Below are positions 36,751-44,447 of a DNA stretch of 64,000 nt, one piece after another (position 1 is the first letter of the stretch; every line of letters starts with the position of its first letter). The DNA is from Micromonospora sp. Llam0 (GTDB lineage Bacteria > Actinomycetota > Actinomycetes > Mycobacteriales > Micromonosporaceae). A program made the position numbers and the translations under genes. The stretch covers positions 558,001 through 622,000 of the forward strand of contig NZ_RJJY01000002.1 in assembly GCF_003751085.1 (NCBI RefSeq), written 5' to 3'. The notes under the pieces are model-generated. The model was not told the origin of the DNA, made no database searches, and was given only the letters and a program-made list of their open reading frames with translations.

Positions 36751-38658
36751 TCAGCGAAAGCGGCGGCGGAGGCTGCGCCGGTTCTGCCCCGGCGCGCTGC
36801 GGTCGATCCGGCGAAGCGCCAGCTCCGAGTCACGGCGACGCTGATCGGCCAGATCGCTGAAGGTCAGCACCAGGCCGCGTACCCCCGGCACCCGCCGCAG
36901 GTCCCGGCACCGCACCTCGAGCAGCACATGGCTGCCGTCCGGCCGGCGCAGCACCCACTGGTCACCCACCGCCGAACCGTCGTCGCGGTCGCCGGCCGCG
37001 CCGAGGGTCCGGGACACCTGCGCCTGATCGGCGGGGTGCACCAGGTCCCGCCAGTCGGCGAGGACCGCCGGCTCGACCCCGAACAACCGGCTGCACGGCG
37101 GACTCGCGTACCGGATCCGGTCGTCCGCTCCGACGATCACCACCGCGTCGCCGGCGGTGCCCGCGACCAGGTTGAGGTACCGGTCCCGGTCCCGCCGGGC
37201 GGCGTCCTCGGTCGCGGCGATCCGGTGCAGGGCCAGCGCCGACTGAGCGACGACCACCTCGATCGCGTCCCGGCTGGCGGCCAGCGCCCCGTCCGCCGCC
37301 CCGACCAGCAGCGCGGTGCCGGTCCCGGCGGACGGGGCCGGCGCGGCCCGGCCGCCCTGGTGGCCGTCCGGGCCGGCCAGGGCGGCCACCAGGGCGGCCG
37401 GTGCCGGGGCGAGCCGGTCGGCCAGGTCGGGATGCAGCAGCCGGGTCGGCATGATCCGGGTACGCCGCCGCGCCGCGTCCACCGGCAACGGATCGTCGAC
37501 GACGACCTGCGGCTGCCAGTCGGCCACCGAATCGGGGTCGGGCGGCTCGCCGTCGGCCCCCGCCACCGGGCGGCGCACGGCGAACAGGATCTGGTGACCG
37601 GTCCCAGCCGGCAGCAGTTCGCCGACCGACCGGCGGACCGTCTCGGCCACCTGCGCGGTCGTGGTGGCCGACAGCAGCCGCATCCCGGCCCTGCGCAGCG
37701 ACCGTTCCCGGTGCACGGCGGCCCGGTGCCCGGTCACCGAATCGACCACCCGGGTCACCGCGAGCAACGTGGTGAGACCGGCCGCCGCGGCGGTGACCAG
37801 CCCGTCGGGCAGCTCGGCCGGCTCTCCGGCGAACGCCTGGATCACCAGCAGGAACGGCACGGTCAGGCAGGTGATCGTCAACAGACCGACCCGCATCGCG
37901 GCGATGTCGTCCGGGCCCGGGGCGGACGGCGTGGCCAGCCGGGCCATGTTCGGATGCAGGGCGGCGACCCCCCAGCTGACGTAGAAGACATACCAGCCGA
38001 GCTCGGCCGGGTGCCCCGGCTGCCAGCCGGCGTTGAGTTCGGCCGCCGCGTACCAGATGTCGGCGGCCAGCATGCCGGCCGCGCCGACGGCCAGCCCGAT
38101 CACCGTCGGATCCCGCCAGGCGGCGGCCGCCAGGCGCAGCATCACCACGACGACCAGCACCCCACCGAGGCCGTGCACGGCCAGCAACGCCTTCTCCACC
38201 GCCGGCAGATCCACATCGGTCACCGCCGGGCCGACCACCAGGGTCCAGGTGACCAGGCCGGTCACCACGACCAGCACCAGGGTGTCCAGCAGAGCGGACC
38301 GGTCCCGCAACGCCACCGTGGTCCGGGTCAGGCCGAGCACCCCGGCCGCGAGCAGGCCGAAGGTCGCCAGGTAGGCGACGTCGGCGATCAGTGACAGGAC
38401 GTCGCCGGCGGCACCCGCCGTACGCCGCGACAGCTCGTAGTGAACGTCGCCGACCGCCAACGCCCCGGCGCCGCCGGCCAGCAGCAGCCAGGGAAGGCGG
38501 CGGGGCGGCCGGTGCCGGTGAATCCCCCAACCGACCGCGGCCACGCTGACCACGCCGATCGCCCCCCACCAGACGGCGGCGGCTGCCGGGGCCCCGAAGA
38601 CCGCCGCGCCGAGGACAGCCTGCACCGCGAGGTAACCGGTCAGGACGCGCCGTGGCAC
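36751..38658 (-). CDS. Multi-pass membrane sensor with GAF-like and PAS domains, no output domain
   Basis: The 635-residue protein has about ten membrane helices (residues 1-315), a GAF-like region (about 330-490) and one PAS domain (about 500-600; VVIVGADDRIRYASPPCSRLFG). It ends soon after the PAS C-cap in a basic stretch. Related actinobacterial proteins usually continue with GGDEF and EAL domains at this point; here the reading frame stops and a terminator follows. The GTG at 38658 follows AAGGAG by 5 bases. It lies 57 bases after the kinase gene on the same strand, so it may feed signals to that kinase. Confidence 0.8.
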   Translation of the reverse strand: MPRRVLTGYLAVQAVLGAAVFGAPAAAAVWWGAIGVVSVAAVGWGIHRHRPPRRLPWLLLAGGAGALAVGDVHYELSRRTAGAAGDVLSLIADVAYLATFGLLAAGVLGLTRTTVALRDRSALLDTLVLVVVTGLVTWTLVVGPAVTDVDLPAVEKALLAVHGLGGVLVVVVMLRLAAAAWRDPTVIGLAVGAAGMLAADIWYAAAELNAGWQPGHPAELGWYVFYVSWGVAALHPNMARLATPSAPGPDDIAAMRVGLLTITCLTVPFLLVIQAFAGEPAELPDGLVTAAAAGLTTLLAVTRVVDSVTGHRAAVHRERSLRRAGMRLLSATTTAQVAETVRRSVGELLPAGTGHQILFAVRRPVAGADGEPPDPDSVADWQPQVVVDDPLPVDAARRRTRIMPTRLLHPDLADRLAPAPAALVAALAGPDGHQGGRAAPAPSAGTGTALLVGAADGALAASRDAIEVVVAQSALALHRIAATEDAARRDRDRYLNLVAGTAGDAVVIVGADDRIRYASPPCSRLFGVEPAVLADWRDLVHPADQAQVSRTLGAAGDRDDGSAVGDQWVLRRPDGSHVLLEVRCRDLRRVPGVRGLVLTFSDLADQRRRDSELALRRIDRSAPGQNRRSLRRRFR

Positions 38659-38715
38659 CGGGACTCCTTCAACCATTGGCCGGCCGCCCGGACCGTGGAC
38701 CGCGCCGACCCCCGG

Positions 38716-40296
38716 CTAAAGCATGAGGGCTGGTGCGGGCCGGCACAACATCGGCCCGGGCAGCAGTACGCGGAACACGGCACCACCGCCCGGCCGGTCG
38801 GACAGCTCGATCCGGCCGGCGTGACCGTCGACGATCGCCGCGACGATCGCCAGGCCGAGCCCGGAGCCGCCGCCCCGCGCCCGGGTACGGCTGGGATCCA
38901 CCCGGTACAGCCGCTCGAAGATTCGCCCGGCGTGTGCCGCCGGCACGCCGGGACCGGTGTCGGCCACCTCGATCACCGCCAGCGGCGCGTCCGCCGGCAG
39001 GTCCCGCCCGACCGCGGCGAGCGGCCGGTCCGACAGGGCACCGCCAGCGCCGGCCGGCAGGTACCCCACCCGTACGGTGATCTCGGCCGTCGGCGGGGTG
39101 TGCTGCAGCGCGTTCGCCACCAGGTTCGCGGCCACCTGGCGCAGCGCCGACTCGTCCCCGGGCACCGAGACCGGCTGCAGATCGGGTACGGCGGAGCCGA
39201 CCGGGCCGGCCGGTGCCATCCGGACCCGGCGGTCGGGGGCCCGCGCGGACGCGTCACGGATCGTGTCGGCGGCGACCGCGAGCAGATCCACCGGTCGGCG
39301 TACCGGCTGCCGACGCTGATCGAGCCGGGCCAGCAGCAGCAGGTCCTCCACCAGCAGCCCCATCCGGGCCGCCTCCGCCTCGATCCGGCGCATCGCCTCG
39401 TCGAGTTCCGGGCCGGGCGTCGCCCCGCCCCGTCGGTACAGTTCGGCGAATCCCCGGATCGAGGTGAGCGGGGTGCGCAGTTCATGCGACGCGTCCGCGA
39501 CGAACTGCCGGAGTCGCTGCTCCGAGGCGGTCCGGGCGGCGACCTCGGCCCCGATCCGGTCCAGCATCGAGTTCAGCGCCCCGCCGAGCCGGCCGACCTC
39601 GGTGTGCGGGTCGGCGTCGAGGACCCGCCGGGACAGGTTGCCGCCGGTGATCTCGGCGGCGATGCGTTCCATCCGGGTCAGCGGTCGCAGCCCGAGCCGG
39701 ACCGTCGCGGCGGCGACCAGACCGAGCAGGACCAGGATCAGCAGCACCACCGCGACGTCGATCATGAGCAGCGTGTCGGCGGTCGCGTCGACCTGGCGCA
39801 GCGAGACGCCGACCACCGCCAGCCCGCCGTCGGCGCGGGTCACCGCGAGCACCCGCCAGGATCCGTCACCGTCGGCGGCGGGCACCGTGTAGGGACGCTG
39901 GACGCCGGCCCGCTCGACCAGCGCCGGATAGTCGTCCAACTCCGGCAGGGCGGCATCCGGGTCGGAGGAGAACTGCTCGGTGAGGGTCCCGTCGGCGTCG
40001 TACAGCAGGACCGACTGGGCCGGTTGCAGGGAGGCACCGGGGAACAGCCGGGGTCGGGGACCGTCCGGGTCGAGGGTGGGCGGCGCGGATCCGGCGTACG
40101 GTCGGCTCATCAGCCGCAACTGCTCGTCGAGCCGGTCGGTCAGGCTCTGCCGCAGCAGGACCAGACCGGCCGTGTTGGCCAGCAGCAGGGCGACGGCGGT
40201 GAGGACGGCGGTGGCCAGCACCAGCCGGGACCGCAGCGTCCAGTGCGACCACCGCCGTACGGTGATCCGGGAGCGGAACCGTTTCGGGAGCCGCAT
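38716..40296 (-). CDS. Sensor histidine kinase of a two-component system
   Basis: The 526-residue kinase has two membrane helices (about 25-50 and 180-205) that flank an extracytoplasmic sensor of about 130 residues. A HAMP linker (about 205-255) follows, then a HisKA domain with the phosphorylated His271 in ASHELRTPL, then an ATPase domain with NALQHT, DTGPGVP and GSGLGLAIV. It overlaps the response-regulator stop by one base (TGATG). The signal it senses is unknown. The system is divergent from a polyphosphate-polymerase/CotH operon. Confidence 0.92.
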   Translation of the reverse strand: MRLPKRFRSRITVRRWSHWTLRSRLVLATAVLTAVALLLANTAGLVLLRQSLTDRLDEQLRLMSRPYAGSAPPTLDPDGPRPRLFPGASLQPAQSVLLYDADGTLTEQFSSDPDAALPELDDYPALVERAGVQRPYTVPAADGDGSWRVLAVTRADGGLAVVGVSLRQVDATADTLLMIDVAVVLLILVLLGLVAAATVRLGLRPLTRMERIAAEITGGNLSRRVLDADPHTEVGRLGGALNSMLDRIGAEVAARTASEQRLRQFVADASHELRTPLTSIRGFAELYRRGGATPGPELDEAMRRIEAEAARMGLLVEDLLLLARLDQRRQPVRRPVDLLAVAADTIRDASARAPDRRVRMAPAGPVGSAVPDLQPVSVPGDESALRQVAANLVANALQHTPPTAEITVRVGYLPAGAGGALSDRPLAAVGRDLPADAPLAVIEVADTGPGVPAAHAGRIFERLYRVDPSRTRARGGGSGLGLAIVAAIVDGHAGRIELSDRPGGGAVFRVLLPGPMLCRPAPALML

Positions 40297-41051
40297 CAGA
40301 CACCGCCCGATCGGGGCAGTCGCAGCGTGTAGCCGACCCCCCGGACGGTGTGGATCAGAGCCGGCTCATGCTGGTCGACCTTCTTGCGCAGGTAGTAGAC
40401 GTACGACTCGACGATCCGGCCGTCGCCGTCGAAGTCGTAGCTCCACACCCGGTCCAGGATCTGGCTCTTGCTGACCACCCGGCCGGCGTTGACCAGCAGA
40501 TACCGCAGCAGGTTGAACTCGGTCGGCGACAGGTCGACGCGCTGGCCGGCCCGGCGTACCTCGTGGGCGTCCTCGTCGAGCTCCAGGTCGGCGTAGCGCA
40601 GCACCCGGTCGGTCGGCTCGGGCTCGTCGACGACGCCGCTGCGCCGCAGGATCGCCCGGATCCGCAGCACCACCTCCTCCAGGCTGAACGGCTTGGCGAC
40701 GTAGTCGTCGGCTCCGACGGTCAGCCCGGCGATCCGGTCCTGCACCGCGTCCCGCGCGGTCAGGAACAGCACGGGTACGTGCCGGCGGCCGCCCCGGCGC
40801 ATCGTCCGGGCCACTTCGAAGCCGTCCAGATCCGGCATCATCACGTCGAGGACCACCAGATCCGGCTCGAACTCCTCGATCGCCACCAGGGCGGCCCGGC
40901 CGCCGTCGACCGCCCGGACGTCGAACCGGATCAGCCGCAACGTGGCGGCGAGCAGGGCGCAGATGTTCGGCTCGTCGTCGACGACCAGGATCCGGGGAGC
41001 CCGGTCCGGTCCGGCGTCGGCTGCCTGGCCGATCTCGGCGGATGAGGTCAT
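40296..41051 (-). CDS. OmpR-family response regulator
   Basis: The 251-residue regulator has a receiver domain with the acidic pair Asp25-Asp26, phospho-acceptor Asp69 in VLDVMMPD, and the conserved lysine in AKPFSLEE. It is followed by a winged-helix DNA-binding domain ending HTVRGVGYTLR. The ATG at 41051 gives the standard length, although no clear ribosome-binding site precedes it. It is the first gene of the regulator-kinase-sensor unit and faces the VTC gene across a 201-bp gap, so control of that operon is plausible. Confidence 0.92.
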   Translation of the reverse strand: MTSSAEIGQAADAGPDRAPRILVVDDEPNICALLAATLRLIRFDVRAVDGGRAALVAIEEFEPDLVVLDVMMPDLDGFEVARTMRRGGRRHVPVLFLTARDAVQDRIAGLTVGADDYVAKPFSLEEVVLRIRAILRRSGVVDEPEPTDRVLRYADLELDEDAHEVRRAGQRVDLSPTEFNLLRYLLVNAGRVVSKSQILDRVWSYDFDGDGRIVESYVYYLRKKVDQHEPALIHTVRGVGYTLRLPRSGGV

Positions 41052-41204
41052 CAGCCATGCATACCGGCGCAGTCTCGGAGCCGGCTGGGAGCCAGCTGTG
41101 GGGTGACCGGGCGACCGCAGACACCCCCGGCCACCCGTCGGCCATCTGCCGTTTACCTGAACATCGCAGCCCGTTCCGAGGTTGTTTTGATCTGCGCGGT
41201 GTTT

Positions 41205-41244
41205 CCTCACCTTCACACCGAATCCGCCCTACCTGAAGGTGAGG
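41205..41244 (+). promoter_or_regulatory. Inverted repeat enclosing the ribosome-binding site of the VTC gene
   Basis: CCTCACCTTCA at 41205-41215 is perfectly complementary to TGAAGGTGAGG at 41234-41244. The right arm contains the purine-rich ribosome-binding site (GAAGGTGAGG), which ends 8 bases before the ATG at 41253. If transcribed, the two arms would form an 11-pair stem with an 18-base loop that hides this site. As DNA the same repeat could instead be an operator. Confidence 0.65.
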
Positions 41245-41252
41245 ACCTGCCC

Positions 41253-42170
41253 ATGCGACCCCAATCGGCACCGCCGACGGCGACCGGCCCAGGACCGGAC
41301 GACCGGGCCGGTCACGGCGCGGACGACCGGGCCGGTCACGCGCTGCGGGGCGTCACCCGGCTGCACGCGTTCAACCGGTACGAGATCAAGTACCTGGTCG
41401 ACAACGCGGCGGTGCCGGCGCTGCGTGACCGGCTCGCCCGCCGACTCGACCGGGACAGCCATGCCGGGACCACCGGGTACGGGGTGTGGAGCCTCTACTA
41501 CGACACCGACGACCTGCGGTTCTACTGGGAGAAGATCGAAGGGCTGCGGTTCCGCCGCAAACTGCGGATCCGGCACTACGGTGACCGGACCGGCATCGAC
41601 GACGACACCACCGTGCACGTCGAGATCAAGCAGCGGGTCAACCGGGTCACCCAGAAACGGCGGATCGCGCTGCCGTACCGACTGGCCCGTCAACTCTGCG
41701 ACGGCCGCACCATGATCGACCACGCCGAGCCGCAGCGGGGCTTCGTGCAGGAGGTCCTCAGCCTGGTCAACGGCCTGGACCTACGCCCGGTGGCGATCAC
41801 CGGCTACCACCGGCAGGCGTTCGTCGGCACCGGCACCGATCTCGGCCTGCGGGTAACCCTGGACACCCGGGTCCGGGGTCGAGACCGTGACCTGCGCCTG
41901 GGCGTCGACGCCGAGAACCGGTTCATCGTCCCGCCGTGGCGTTCGATCATGGAGGTGAAGGCGAACGAACGGGTTCCGTACTGGCTGACCGACCTCGCCG
42001 CGAAGGCCGACCTGTCGGTCGTGCGGGTCAGCAAGTACTGCCAGTGCGTCGAGGCGTTCGGGCGGGCCCCGCGGTCGGTGTTCCACCTGCCGGCCGACGC
42101 GCCACCACCGGAGCCGGACCGGCCGGTCGGCGAACTGCTGGCCGTCGGCGCGAGCGGCGGGCGGGCCTGA
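41253..42170 (+). CDS. VTC-domain polyphosphate polymerase-like protein
   Basis: The 305-residue protein has a short charged N-terminus followed by a VTC domain: FNRYEIKYLVD at the start, the YYDTDDLRFYWEKIEGLRFRRK.RIR stretch with nucleotide- and phosphate-binding basic residues, VHVEIKQR, and IMEVKANERVPYWL near the end. In yeast Vtc4 this tunnel-like domain makes polyphosphate from ATP. No membrane helix is present, but the next gene encodes a membrane protein, and the three-gene order VTC-DUF4956-CotH is compact. Activity of the bacterial protein is inferred. Confidence 0.85.
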   Translation: MRPQSAPPTATGPGPDDRAGHGADDRAGHALRGVTRLHAFNRYEIKYLVDNAAVPALRDRLARRLDRDSHAGTTGYGVWSLYYDTDDLRFYWEKIEGLRFRRKLRIRHYGDRTGIDDDTTVHVEIKQRVNRVTQKRRIALPYRLARQLCDGRTMIDHAEPQRGFVQEVLSLVNGLDLRPVAITGYHRQAFVGTGTDLGLRVTLDTRVRGRDRDLRLGVDAENRFIVPPWRSIMEVKANERVPYWLTDLAAKADLSVVRVSKYCQCVEAFGRAPRSVFHLPADAPPPEPDRPVGELLAVGASGGRA

Positions 42171-42171
42171 C

Positions 42172-42849
42172 ATGGACATCACCTTCCAGGACCTGTCCAG
42201 CACGTTCAGCCTCGGCGACATCGCCGCGTCGCTGGCGCTGTCCTTCGTGCTCAGCGCGATCATCGGCTGGGTCTACCGGGCCACCCACCGCAACGTGTCC
42301 TACAGCCAGTCGTACGTCCAGACACTGATCATCCTCGGCATGCTGATCTCGTTGATCATGCTGGTCGTCGGCTCCAACATCGCCCGCGCCTTCGCCCTGG
42401 TCGGCGCGCTGTCCGTGGTCCGGTTCCGCAACGCGATCAAGGAGACCCGCGACGTCGGCTTCATCTTCCTGGTGATGGGCGTCGGCATGGCCTGCGGCAC
42501 CCGGTTCTACCTGCTCGCGGTGATCGCCACGGTCGCGATCTGCCTGATCATCGGGGTGATGTACCGCTTCAACTGGTTCGCACTCAACGTGCAACGCCAG
42601 GTGGTGAAGGTGCAGGTGCCACCGGACCGCGACCACACGCACGCCGTGCAGGACGTGCTGCTGCGGCTGACCACCGAGTTCGAGCTGGTCAGCATCGAGT
42701 CGATCCGGGGCGGCGCGCTGACCGAGCTGATGTACACGGTCAGGTTGAAGAAGGGATCCGAGCCGGGTGAGCTGATCGCGGCGTTGAGCCAACTGACCGG
42801 CGGTCAACGGGTCACGGTGCTCACCGGATACGACCAGACGGATCTGTGA
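42172..42849 (+). CDS. DUF4956 membrane protein
   Basis: The 225-residue protein has four membrane helices (about residues 18-125). The conserved loop GALSVVRFRNAIKETRDVGF lies between helices 2 and 3, and a soluble domain of about 95 residues at the C-terminus looks ACT-like. It starts one base after the VTC stop codon and its stop overlaps the CotH start (TGATG). Function is unknown. Its position suggests a membrane partner of the VTC domain, as a channel or anchor. Confidence 0.85.
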   Translation: MDITFQDLSSTFSLGDIAASLALSFVLSAIIGWVYRATHRNVSYSQSYVQTLIILGMLISLIMLVVGSNIARAFALVGALSVVRFRNAIKETRDVGFIFLVMGVGMACGTRFYLLAVIATVAICLIIGVMYRFNWFALNVQRQVVKVQVPPDRDHTHAVQDVLLRLTTEFELVSIESIRGGALTELMYTVRLKKGSEPGELIAALSQLTGGQRVTVLTGYDQTDL

Positions 42850-44447
42850 TGAGCGGTACAGCGTCCGCCCCGAACCCGCCGGCCGCGCCGTCGGTCGCCC
42901 CGCCGAAGCGCCGGTGGCGGCACCGGATCCCGCTGCGGGTCCGGCACAACTACCGGCTGCTCGCCAGCTGCACCGCCTTCCTGCTGGTGGTGACGGTCGT
43001 GCTGGGCAGCACCCGGATCCAGCCGTACGTCACCAGCGCGGCCGACGCCGCGACCGATCTGGTGACGGTCGACATCGCCGGCACCGTCGACCTGTTCGAT
43101 TCGACGGTGGCTCACGAGATCTCGCTGGTCTTCGCCGACGCCGACTACCAGCGGATGCTCGACGCCTACTTCACTGACGGCGAGAAGGAGTACGTCGAGG
43201 CCGACCTGGTGGTCGACTCGACCACGATCCCGAGCGTGGGCATCCGGCTCAAAGGCAACTCCACCCTGTCCGGTCTGACCCGCGACGGTGAGACCGCCCA
43301 ACGTGGCGGGGCCGCACCCGGCGGCGGCCAGTTCGGCGGTGGGCAGCGACCCGACGGCGGCCAGTTCGGTGGAGGGCAGCGACCCGACGGCGGACAGGGC
43401 CAGCAGCAGGGCGCCGGCGGGCCGGGCGGCGGTATGGGCCGGGCCGGGCTGGCCGCCGAGGAGCCGGAAACCCTGCCCTGGCTGATCAGCTTCGACACGT
43501 TCGTCGAGGGGCGGCGCTACCAGGGACTGCAGGAGATCGCGGTGCGGGTCGGCGGAATGGGCGGCGGCACCGCCGTGGCCAACGAGGCCCTCGCCCTGTC
43601 GCTGCTCGGCACCGCCGGGATGACCACCCAGCGGTACGCGTACAGCGCGTTCACGGTCAACGACCGGCCGACCACCGGCCGCCTCGTGGTGGAACACCCC
43701 GACGAGCACTACGCCGCCGGGCTGGGTGACAGTGGCGTGCTCTACAAGTCGTTGGCCGGCGGTTCGTTCACCTACCAGGGCGAGGATCCGGTCGAGTACC
43801 AGGACGACTTCAAGCAGATCAACCTCACCGGAAGCCAGGACCTGCAGCCGGCGATCAACCTGATCCGCTGGATGTCCGAGGCGTCCGACGACGAGTTCGA
43901 CGACGAGCTGGCCGATTACGTCGACGTCGAGTCGTTCGCCCGCTACGTCGCCGCCCAGAACCTGCTGCTCAACTTCGACGACATGGCCGGTCCCGGCCGC
44001 AACTACTACCTCTGGTACGACCTGGCCACCCGGAAGTTCACGGTGGTCAGCTGGGACCACAACCTGACGTTCAGTGGCGACGCCACCCTCGGGCCGCAGG
44101 ACGCGGTGACCATGGGCGGTGGCCGGTTCGGTGGCGGTCCCGGCGCTGCCCAGCAGGGCGGCGGTCCCGGCGCCGCACAACAGGACGGCGGTCCCGGCCG
44201 GTCGACGGGCCACCCGCTCAAGGAGCGGTTCCTGGCCAGCCAGGCGTTCGCCGAGGTGTACGCCACCGCGTACCGCGATCTCTACCAGCGGATGTTCGCC
44301 AGCGGCGCGGCGACGGCCGCGTTGGACGGCCTGACCGCCGTCCTGACGACCGTCGACGGCCGGGACGACGCGGCGGTCACGACCGAGCTGGAACAGCTGC
44401 GGGCCACGGTCGAGCAGCGGACAGAAAGCCTGCGCGATCAGGTGTGA
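42849..44447 (+). CDS. CotH-family secreted/membrane-anchored protein kinase-like protein
   Basis: The protein has 532 residues. A basic N-terminus and one membrane helix (about residues 35-55) are followed by an extracytoplasmic CotH domain. Landmarks are LVFADADYQRML, GIRLKGNSTL, WLISFDTFVEGRRYQGLQE, YVAAQNLLLNFDD and VVSWDHNLTF. CotH of Bacillus is an atypical kinase that phosphorylates spore-coat proteins. Two Gly/Gln-rich insertions are present: GGQFGGGQRPD repeats at residues 159-180 and GGGPGAAQQ repeats near 430-450. The ATG at 42849 overlaps the DUF4956 stop; a GTG three bases earlier is possible. Confidence 0.85.
   Translation: MSGTASAPNPPAAPSVAPPKRRWRHRIPLRVRHNYRLLASCTAFLLVVTVVLGSTRIQPYVTSAADAATDLVTVDIAGTVDLFDSTVAHEISLVFADADYQRMLDAYFTDGEKEYVEADLVVDSTTIPSVGIRLKGNSTLSGLTRDGETAQRGGAAPGGGQFGGGQRPDGGQFGGGQRPDGGQGQQQGAGGPGGGMGRAGLAAEEPETLPWLISFDTFVEGRRYQGLQEIAVRVGGMGGGTAVANEALALSLLGTAGMTTQRYAYSAFTVNDRPTTGRLVVEHPDEHYAAGLGDSGVLYKSLAGGSFTYQGEDPVEYQDDFKQINLTGSQDLQPAINLIRWMSEASDDEFDDELADYVDVESFARYVAAQNLLLNFDDMAGPGRNYYLWYDLATRKFTVVSWDHNLTFSGDATLGPQDAVTMGGGRFGGGPGAAQQGGGPGAAQQDGGPGRSTGHPLKERFLASQAFAEVYATAYRDLYQRMFASGAATAALDGLTAVLTTVDGRDDAAVTTELEQLRATVEQRTESLRDQV
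43323..43388 (+). repeat. Tandem 33-bp repeats inside the CotH-family gene
   Basis: Two 33-base units at 43323-43355 and 43356-43388 differ at only two positions and encode GGQFGGGQRPD twice; a partial third copy follows. Copy-number changes would keep the frame. Confidence 0.85.

Follow-up and report, generated by a model that had tools for sequence, protein, structure and literature searches.

A VTC-DUF4956-CotH gene module of Micromonospora sp. Llam0, a Pel-independent and signal-linked form of a known triad

The module and its distribution

We analysed a 64-kb stretch of contig NZ_RJJY01000002.1 of Micromonospora sp. Llam0 (the whole of which is termed the window, and to which all coordinates refer) that encodes on its forward strand a VTC-domain protein with a triphosphate tunnel of the polyphosphate polymerase type (41253..42170; PF09359, E 1.4e-46), a DUF4956 membrane protein (42172..42849; PF16316, E 2.2e-21) and an atypical kinase of the CotH family (42849..44447; PF08757, E 8.1e-31). 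VTC and DUF4956 are near-inseparable across genomes and form a recurrent unit, usually with a third gene encoding a surface protein, and the module of the window is a Pel-independent, signal-linked and widespread form of a triad that is already known. The VTC and DUF4956 genes are separated by 1 base, while DUF4956 and CotH overlap by 1 base, or by 4 if an upstream GTG start is used, an overlap of 4 bases being the commonest spacing among relatives. Open reading frames (ORFs) were called heuristically, by GC content at codon positions or by length, so that gene-level counts are approximate.

Among 121 related genomes, 39 encode both VTC and DUF4956, one VTC only, none DUF4956 only and 81 neither (p 5e-31); the single VTC-only genome is an 82%-complete assembly in approximately 790 contigs. 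The arrangement in the window (VTC-DUF4956-CotH) is termed type A. By score it is present in 25 of the 121 genomes, 24 of them from the family of the window (itself included) and one (L048) from another family of the same taxonomic order. VTC, DUF4956 and CotH are adjacent in all 24 other genomes that possess a type A DUF4956, and the genes flanking the module differ almost wholly outside the genus. Of the three proteins, DUF4956 shows the strongest conservation, with a median identity outside the genus of 82%, compared with 70% for VTC and 56% for CotH.

The preliminary description of this locus stated that the neighbourhood recurs in actinobacteria and proposed a comparison, which bore this out. 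In a sample of the phylum, DUF4956 is represented in 16 of 149 genomes (own genome included), and all 16 loci taken from the 15 other genomes have a VTC ORF beside it. Recurrence extends well beyond the phylum. Scanning named genomes with the type A alignment (first sequence L021) gave at least 582 matches, the best 80 of which, mostly from Bacillota, were retained; two loci without a called DUF4956 ORF were dropped, leaving 78. Two-component system (TCS), CotH and Cthe_2159 labels in this set derive from profiles built here, TCS genes being labelled by profile alone. VTC is adjacent to DUF4956 in 74 of the 78 loci, and the third gene encodes CotH in 53 and a Cthe_2159 protein (PF14262) in 13, with one of the two nearby in 4 and neither in 8. 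The same substitution of Cthe_2159 for CotH is found in 13 loci of the window's own phylum (three checked with Pfam), and one Cthe_2159 protein matches PDB entries 4peu and 4phb, both titled uncharacterized. VTC and DUF4956 also occur in the same three of 14 control genomes (Bacteroides ihuae, Corynebacterium glutamicum and Methanosarcina acetivorans), with CotH detected in C. glutamicum, M. acetivorans and Bacillus subtilis; the B. subtilis control genome has no match to either VTC or DUF4956.

A second module, arranged DUF4956-VTC-CotH and termed type B, is located at approximately C1:203070-206655 (L009 2884-6655) in the same genome. Each of the three families is matched twice in this genome, always within these two modules, with no further match at E <= 0.001. 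The type B CotH carries cellulose-binding CBM2 and chitobiase-like domains, and genes for GH10, GH16 and a polysaccharide deacetylase are found nearby. Type B loci with Cthe_2159 are accompanied in four cases (L052, L054, L057 and L058) by a gene encoding a NAGPA-like phosphodiester glycosidase, and in the last three of these also by a GT2-GtrA gene (one representative of each gene checked with Pfam), neighbours that hint at phosphodiester-linked surface glycans.

Relationship to Pel accessory genes and other systems

The preliminary description regarded the system as undescribed, which does not hold. CotH, a poly-phosphate polymerase and DUF4956 are reported as contiguous with pel genes in streptococci and clostridia, and also in bifidobacteria (Whitfield 2020, PMC7112168), and a 2025 study of Streptococcus intermedius deleted SIR_1592-1594 as Pel accessory genes (PMC12345266). 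According to its passages on these genes, the SIR_1592 and SIR_1594 mutants aggregate less, the former making more Pel and the latter less; we take SIR_1594 to be CotH, and SIR_1592, there called an MgtC/ACT protein, is probably DUF4956. The same passages state that the authors did not find synteny of the triad outside the Pel locus (PMC12345266). Our own literature search found the module in print only as Pel accessory genes or in the Clostridium perfringens locus considered below, and a search on "bacterial VTC" wordings returned no paper.

The module of the window shares with the Pel accessory genes, as far as these are described in print, the same three adjacent families and a secreted CotH, but differs in the lack of PelG, the order of the genes, the TCS neighbours, the 11-bp repeats described below and the alternative third gene. 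PelG has no match in any of the 121 genomes (own genome and 120 relatives), although the Thermotoga maritima control was positive. PelF/PelG-like genes are found in at least 12 of the 78 loci, two of them having weak PelF matches alone; this is a lower bound because no flank was longer than 10 kb and a number of contigs are short. All 12 Pel-linked loci are ordered CotH-VTC-DUF4956, two with a further CotH, whereas 21 of the 27 loci with a TCS gene within two genes are ordered VTC-DUF4956-CotH or VTC-DUF4956-Cthe_2159. Only one locus (L081) combines both contexts.

Three other systems are comparable. The yeast VTC complex likewise consists of a VTC catalytic domain and a membrane part, both with conserved basic residues in the structure as described (PMC9911596), but in the window the catalytic and membrane parts are separate proteins and only the VTC domain is found in the VTC protein. 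The Bacillus spore-coat kinase CotH (5jd9) belongs to the same atypical kinase family, both aligned aspartates being kept here; in contrast, the CotH of the window has a hydrophobic N-terminal anchor and is operonic with VTC and DUF4956. The NELoc-2 locus of C. perfringens is reported to contain VTC-domain and CotH genes, there with a chitin-synthase-type glycosyltransferase, and its membrane gene, called tubulin/FtsZ in the locus description, may correspond to DUF4956 (PMC2879425).

Conserved residues and predicted topology

The VTC protein scores 159 bits against PF09359, above the curated cut-off of 23, and contains no hydrophobic segment. A VTC profile aligns to yeast Vtc4 (E 5e-24) and sets R105 and R107 opposite the RLR motif of the latter. 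Thirteen residues, including R42, K46, R105, R107, E124, K126, K135, R187, R200 and D204, are identical in 122 of 122 aligned rows (in which the window is counted twice), and E234, K236 and K261 in 99%. We presume the positions in this protein that are equivalent to yeast E426 and K458. By alignment, the catalytic basic residues and the metal glutamate are thus kept, and homology suggests that polyphosphate is the product; R264, R266 and E426 are among the residues mutated in the structural work on yeast VTC (PMC9911596).

DUF4956 has four hydrophobic segments by hydropathy and may be described overall as having 4-5 membrane helices. An AlphaFold model (pLDDT, the predicted local distance difference test, 77.5; pTM, the predicted template modelling score, 0.61) consists of five long helices together with an alpha/beta domain at the C-terminus; no sequence match was found in the PDB set. 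Two arginine residues, R84 and R86, are invariant in 44 DUF4956 sequences and are positioned in the model where the third helix ends and immediately beyond it. If the protein is oriented N-out/C-in, the loop containing R84 and R86 would be cytosolic, because the C-terminal domain would then be cytosolic. Basic residues are reported to line the channel of yeast VTC (PMC9911596).

CotH possesses one hydrophobic segment, an N-terminal anchor at residues 37-55, and is predicted by hydropathy to be extracytoplasmic, in agreement with the outside-facing kinase envisaged in the preliminary description. A CotH profile aligns with 5jd9 (E 9e-44). D377 and D403, which we take to be the catalytic aspartates, are kept in 98% of 94 rows and lie opposite the 5jd9 motifs NFD and WDY. 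Phosphorylation outside the membrane may be envisaged.

Two-component neighbours

Across a divergent region of 201 bp (41052-41252), the module faces reverse-strand genes encoding an OmpR/PhoB-class response regulator (40296..41051) and a sensor histidine kinase (38716..40296), which overlap by 1 base. The kinase has a HAMP-HisKA-HATPase architecture and hydrophobic segments at residues 30-48 and 176-194, the stretch between which is probably extracytoplasmic. Judged by bit score, the response regulator is closest among solved homologues to PhoP of Mycobacterium tuberculosis type by a wide margin (275 bits, compared with 175 for PrrA, 169 for RegX3 and 168 for MtrA), and falls below the NCBIfam PhoB cut-off (213 versus 296).

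All 5 of the same-genus relatives that carry type A have this TCS next to the module. Kinase relatives were sought at E <= 1e-100 in 61 genomes, of which 21 matched, with at most 24 candidates scored per genome. All six same-genus genomes with a type A module contain a match, and a same-genus genome without type A (G150) has none at E 1e-100. Outside the genus, 17 matches (53-67% identity) are distributed over 15 genomes of the family, with and without the module, and the 10 that were inspected have no module gene within approximately 5 kb. A general dedication of this TCS to the module is rejected, since the 10 kinase relatives inspected outside the genus are unlinked to it.

Other TCS pairs occupy comparable positions. 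A second, different divergent pair adjoins the module in L030, L032, L034 and L037, and lies one gene further away in L029; its response regulators are 67-90% identical to one another and 44-47% identical to that of the window. In L048 a distant relative of the window's pair is located beside the module in the same direction. A TCS gene is the immediate upstream neighbour in 11 of the 25 type A loci (window included) and in 20 of the 73 loci of the 80-locus set that have an upstream gene (12 on the strand of the module and 8 on the opposite strand), compared with 12 of 482 genes further away (2.5%; p 1e-11, which is optimistic because related loci were kept in the set). The upstream regulators in the 80-locus set have a median identity of 36%, which suggests that TCS recruitment has probably occurred repeatedly. 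Two-component control of the module looks general in view of these recurrent neighbours and the operator-like 11-bp repeats; for the adjacent pair of the window, which the preliminary description proposed as the switch, linkage to the module is confined to its genus.

Promoter repeats

Tandem 11-bp repeats are the operator form of OmpR/PhoB regulators. The divergent region contains on the forward strand a tandem array with as many as six 11-bp units of degenerate sequence (41129..41194; GGCCACCCGTC GGCCATCTGCC GTTTACCTGAA CATCGCAGCCC GTTCCGAGGTT GTTTTGATCTG; p 0.015 against its own shuffles), a predicted response-regulator operator of which the last three or four units are common to same-genus relatives. 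With a core that we take to be the PHO unit, the 25 type A promoters score 13.14 compared with 10.19 for 78 controls at a spacing of 11 (p 4e-14), a spacing of 12 bp giving nothing and spacings of 9, 10 and 13 weak differences only, and 23 of the 25 are at p <= 0.025 against their own shuffles. Three units of GTTCACC, the Streptomyces coelicolor PhoP motif as quoted in PMC4832192, score 15.2 in the 25 type A promoters and 11.55 in 69 controls at the same spacing (p 6e-14), compared with p 5e-4 at 10 and 0.02 at 13; the M. tuberculosis-type operator TCACAGC is weaker (p 7e-6). Within the taxonomic order of the window, the type A repeat unit resembles GTTCACC, the PHO box.

Periodicity was also detected independently of these motifs, the later spacing scans of type A relatives being restricted to the upstream 320-340 bases. 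In 20 type A promoters, after exclusion of five same-genus loci, the distances between TTC pairs show peaks at 11, 22 and 33 bp. For identical 5-mers, recurrence at 11 bp reaches z 15.6 among relatives of the window, compared with -0.1 in 61 controls, the signal being 15.6 in loci with a TCS nearby (7 loci) and 6.7 in those without (13 loci). For 33 promoters of the 80-locus set, z is 19.6 at 11 bp, compared with -1.6 in 253 control intergenic regions (16.3 with a TCS nearby, n 19; 8.2 without, n 14). A motif search by expectation-maximisation gave 469 bits at a unit length of 11 against a null of 213, nulls covering lengths 10-12; high totals are also seen at 9, 13 and 14, which we attribute to coding sequence included at the 3' end of the input. 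Type B promoters, usable in 7 of 17 loci, gave p 0.008 with GTTCACC and p 5e-6 with GTTCACAG, the best of four units tried. Repeats of TTCTTAG or CTCTTAG, 11 bp apart, are found upstream of VTC in L029, L030, L032, L034 and L037, and more weakly in L045; TTCTTAG repeats go with the second TCS pair (5 versus 14 loci, p 7e-4) and represent a candidate operator of its regulator.

Possible functions

The best-supported mechanism, resting on homology and linkage, would be polyphosphate export for a surface protein. VTC would polymerise phosphate from ATP into polyphosphate in the cytosol, DUF4956 would pass the chain across the membrane in the manner of the transmembrane part of the yeast VTC complex, and the third, outside-facing protein (CotH here, Cthe_2159 elsewhere) would act on the exported product or on a surface polymer joined by it. 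An OmpR/PhoB-class response regulator would switch the operon by binding the tandem 11-bp repeats, and neighbouring TCS pairs, recruited repeatedly, would add other envelope signals. Phosphate limitation would be the likeliest signal, given the likeness of the repeats to a PHO box among relatives of the window. The genome also encodes PPK1, so that a second polyphosphate enzyme such as VTC suggests a different destination for its product. We hold this scheme, in which polyphosphate made in the cytosol is exported in the service of a surface protein and phosphate- or envelope-type signals control the genes, only tentatively, at a little less than an even chance. If true, bacteria would have their own equivalent of the eukaryotic VTC polyphosphate translocator, and with it a defined path by which polyphosphate reaches the cell surface. 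The form that is free of Pel and linked to signalling genes shows the triad to be a portable module and not only a Pel accessory, and the window locus, with three genes and one promoter, would be a simple setting in which to study polyphosphate export and extracytoplasmic phosphorylation. A bolder version is improbable: that CotH, working outside the membrane with little ATP at hand, draws its phosphate from polyphosphate exported by VTC and DUF4956, or attaches this polyphosphate, and so phosphorylates surface proteins or glycans under a phosphate-type TCS across Bacteria, with relatives in Archaea.

Several observations weigh against the export scheme. The DUF4956 of the window scores 22.8 bits against MgtC (PF02308), below the curated cut-off of 31.4, and 15 of 44 DUF4956 members match MgtC weakly at E <= 0.01; we know of no MgtC family protein that acts as a polymer channel. 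Eight of the 78 loci have neither CotH nor Cthe_2159 as third gene, and B. ihuae encodes VTC and DUF4956 with no CotH match. The repeats are mainly a pooled signal, only 7 of 33 Bacillota-type promoters singly exceeding the 95th percentile of controls, and controls peak at other spacings (12, 21, 24 and 9 for the window's relatives; 21 for the Bacillota type). The unrelated template TTCTTAG lies above controls at every spacing tried, which indicates that base composition adds to the motif scores. Among PhoU loci of relatives (30 fetched, 15 examined), a GTTCA-type box scoring at least 12 is present in 14 of those examined, in a comparison without controls, but these boxes are mostly spaced at 22 and 10 and not in tandem at 11, which weakens the PHO assignment of the module repeats. 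The passages on the SIR_1593 (VTC) mutant report no change, while the presumed DUF4956 and CotH mutants differ in aggregation and Pel amount (PMC12345266), so that polyphosphate as the key product fits poorly in S. intermedius.

An alternative that we consider rather unlikely is that the module modifies or regulates a surface polysaccharide, VTC and DUF4956 tuning its synthesis or phosphorylating the glycan and CotH or Cthe_2159 binding or phosphorylating glycan or matrix proteins, with free polyphosphate not the end product. The PelF/PelG-like genes of the 12 CotH-VTC-DUF4956 loci point in this direction, as do the chitin-synthase-like GT2, NAGPA and GT2-GtrA genes of some other loci (one representative each checked with Pfam), the CBM2 domain of the second CotH with its neighbouring GH10, GH16 and polysaccharide deacetylase genes, the replacement of CotH by Cthe_2159, which Pfam describes as carbohydrate-binding, and the altered Pel amount and aggregation reported for S. 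intermedius mutants (PMC12345266). On the other hand, PelG is unmatched in the 121 genomes, no recurrent glycan gene cluster surrounds the type A module outside the genus (where flanking clusters are mostly unannotated), and the VTC active site is fully kept.

It is improbable that the polyphosphate stays in the cytosol, with DUF4956 an MgtC-like regulator of VTC or of phosphate balance and CotH merely co-regulated. The weak MgtC similarity and C-terminal alpha/beta domain of DUF4956, the PHO-box-like repeats and the B. ihuae pair without CotH would fit, but the close linkage to a third, outside-facing gene in both sets of loci and the presence of PPK1 argue against it. Micromonosporaceae sporulate, and the homology and catalytic residues of CotH would be in keeping with phosphorylation of a spore coat as in the Bacillus CotH-CotB/CotG system. 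This is highly improbable, as the B. subtilis control has CotH and no match to VTC or DUF4956, and the triad is reported in streptococci, which do not sporulate (PMC12345266).

Other features of the locus

The six genes, their intergenic gaps and the 201-bp divergent region are as given in the preliminary description, according to ORF calls and domain searches. The sixth gene (36751..38676, reverse strand) begins 39 bases after the histidine kinase gene and encodes a membrane protein with approximately eight hydrophobic segments and a PAS domain at residues 523-591, in which the domain search found no output domain. Its inclusion in the sensor set beside the module was upheld at genus level only: it is present in four of five same-genus relatives, not being found in L046, and is a neighbour within the genus alone.

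A 12-bp perfect inverted repeat with an 18-base loop (41204..41245, forward strand; arms 41204-41215 and 41234-41245) lies between the array and VTC. An Rfam search gave two sub-threshold matches only. The same arms, at 11 bp, recur in five relatives of the genus; the remaining 19 type A loci gave no such match. The predicted hairpin has z -2.7, with 3 of 200 shuffles as good, and, since the probable Shine-Dalgarno sequence of VTC lies within its 3' arm, could hide this ribosome-binding site.

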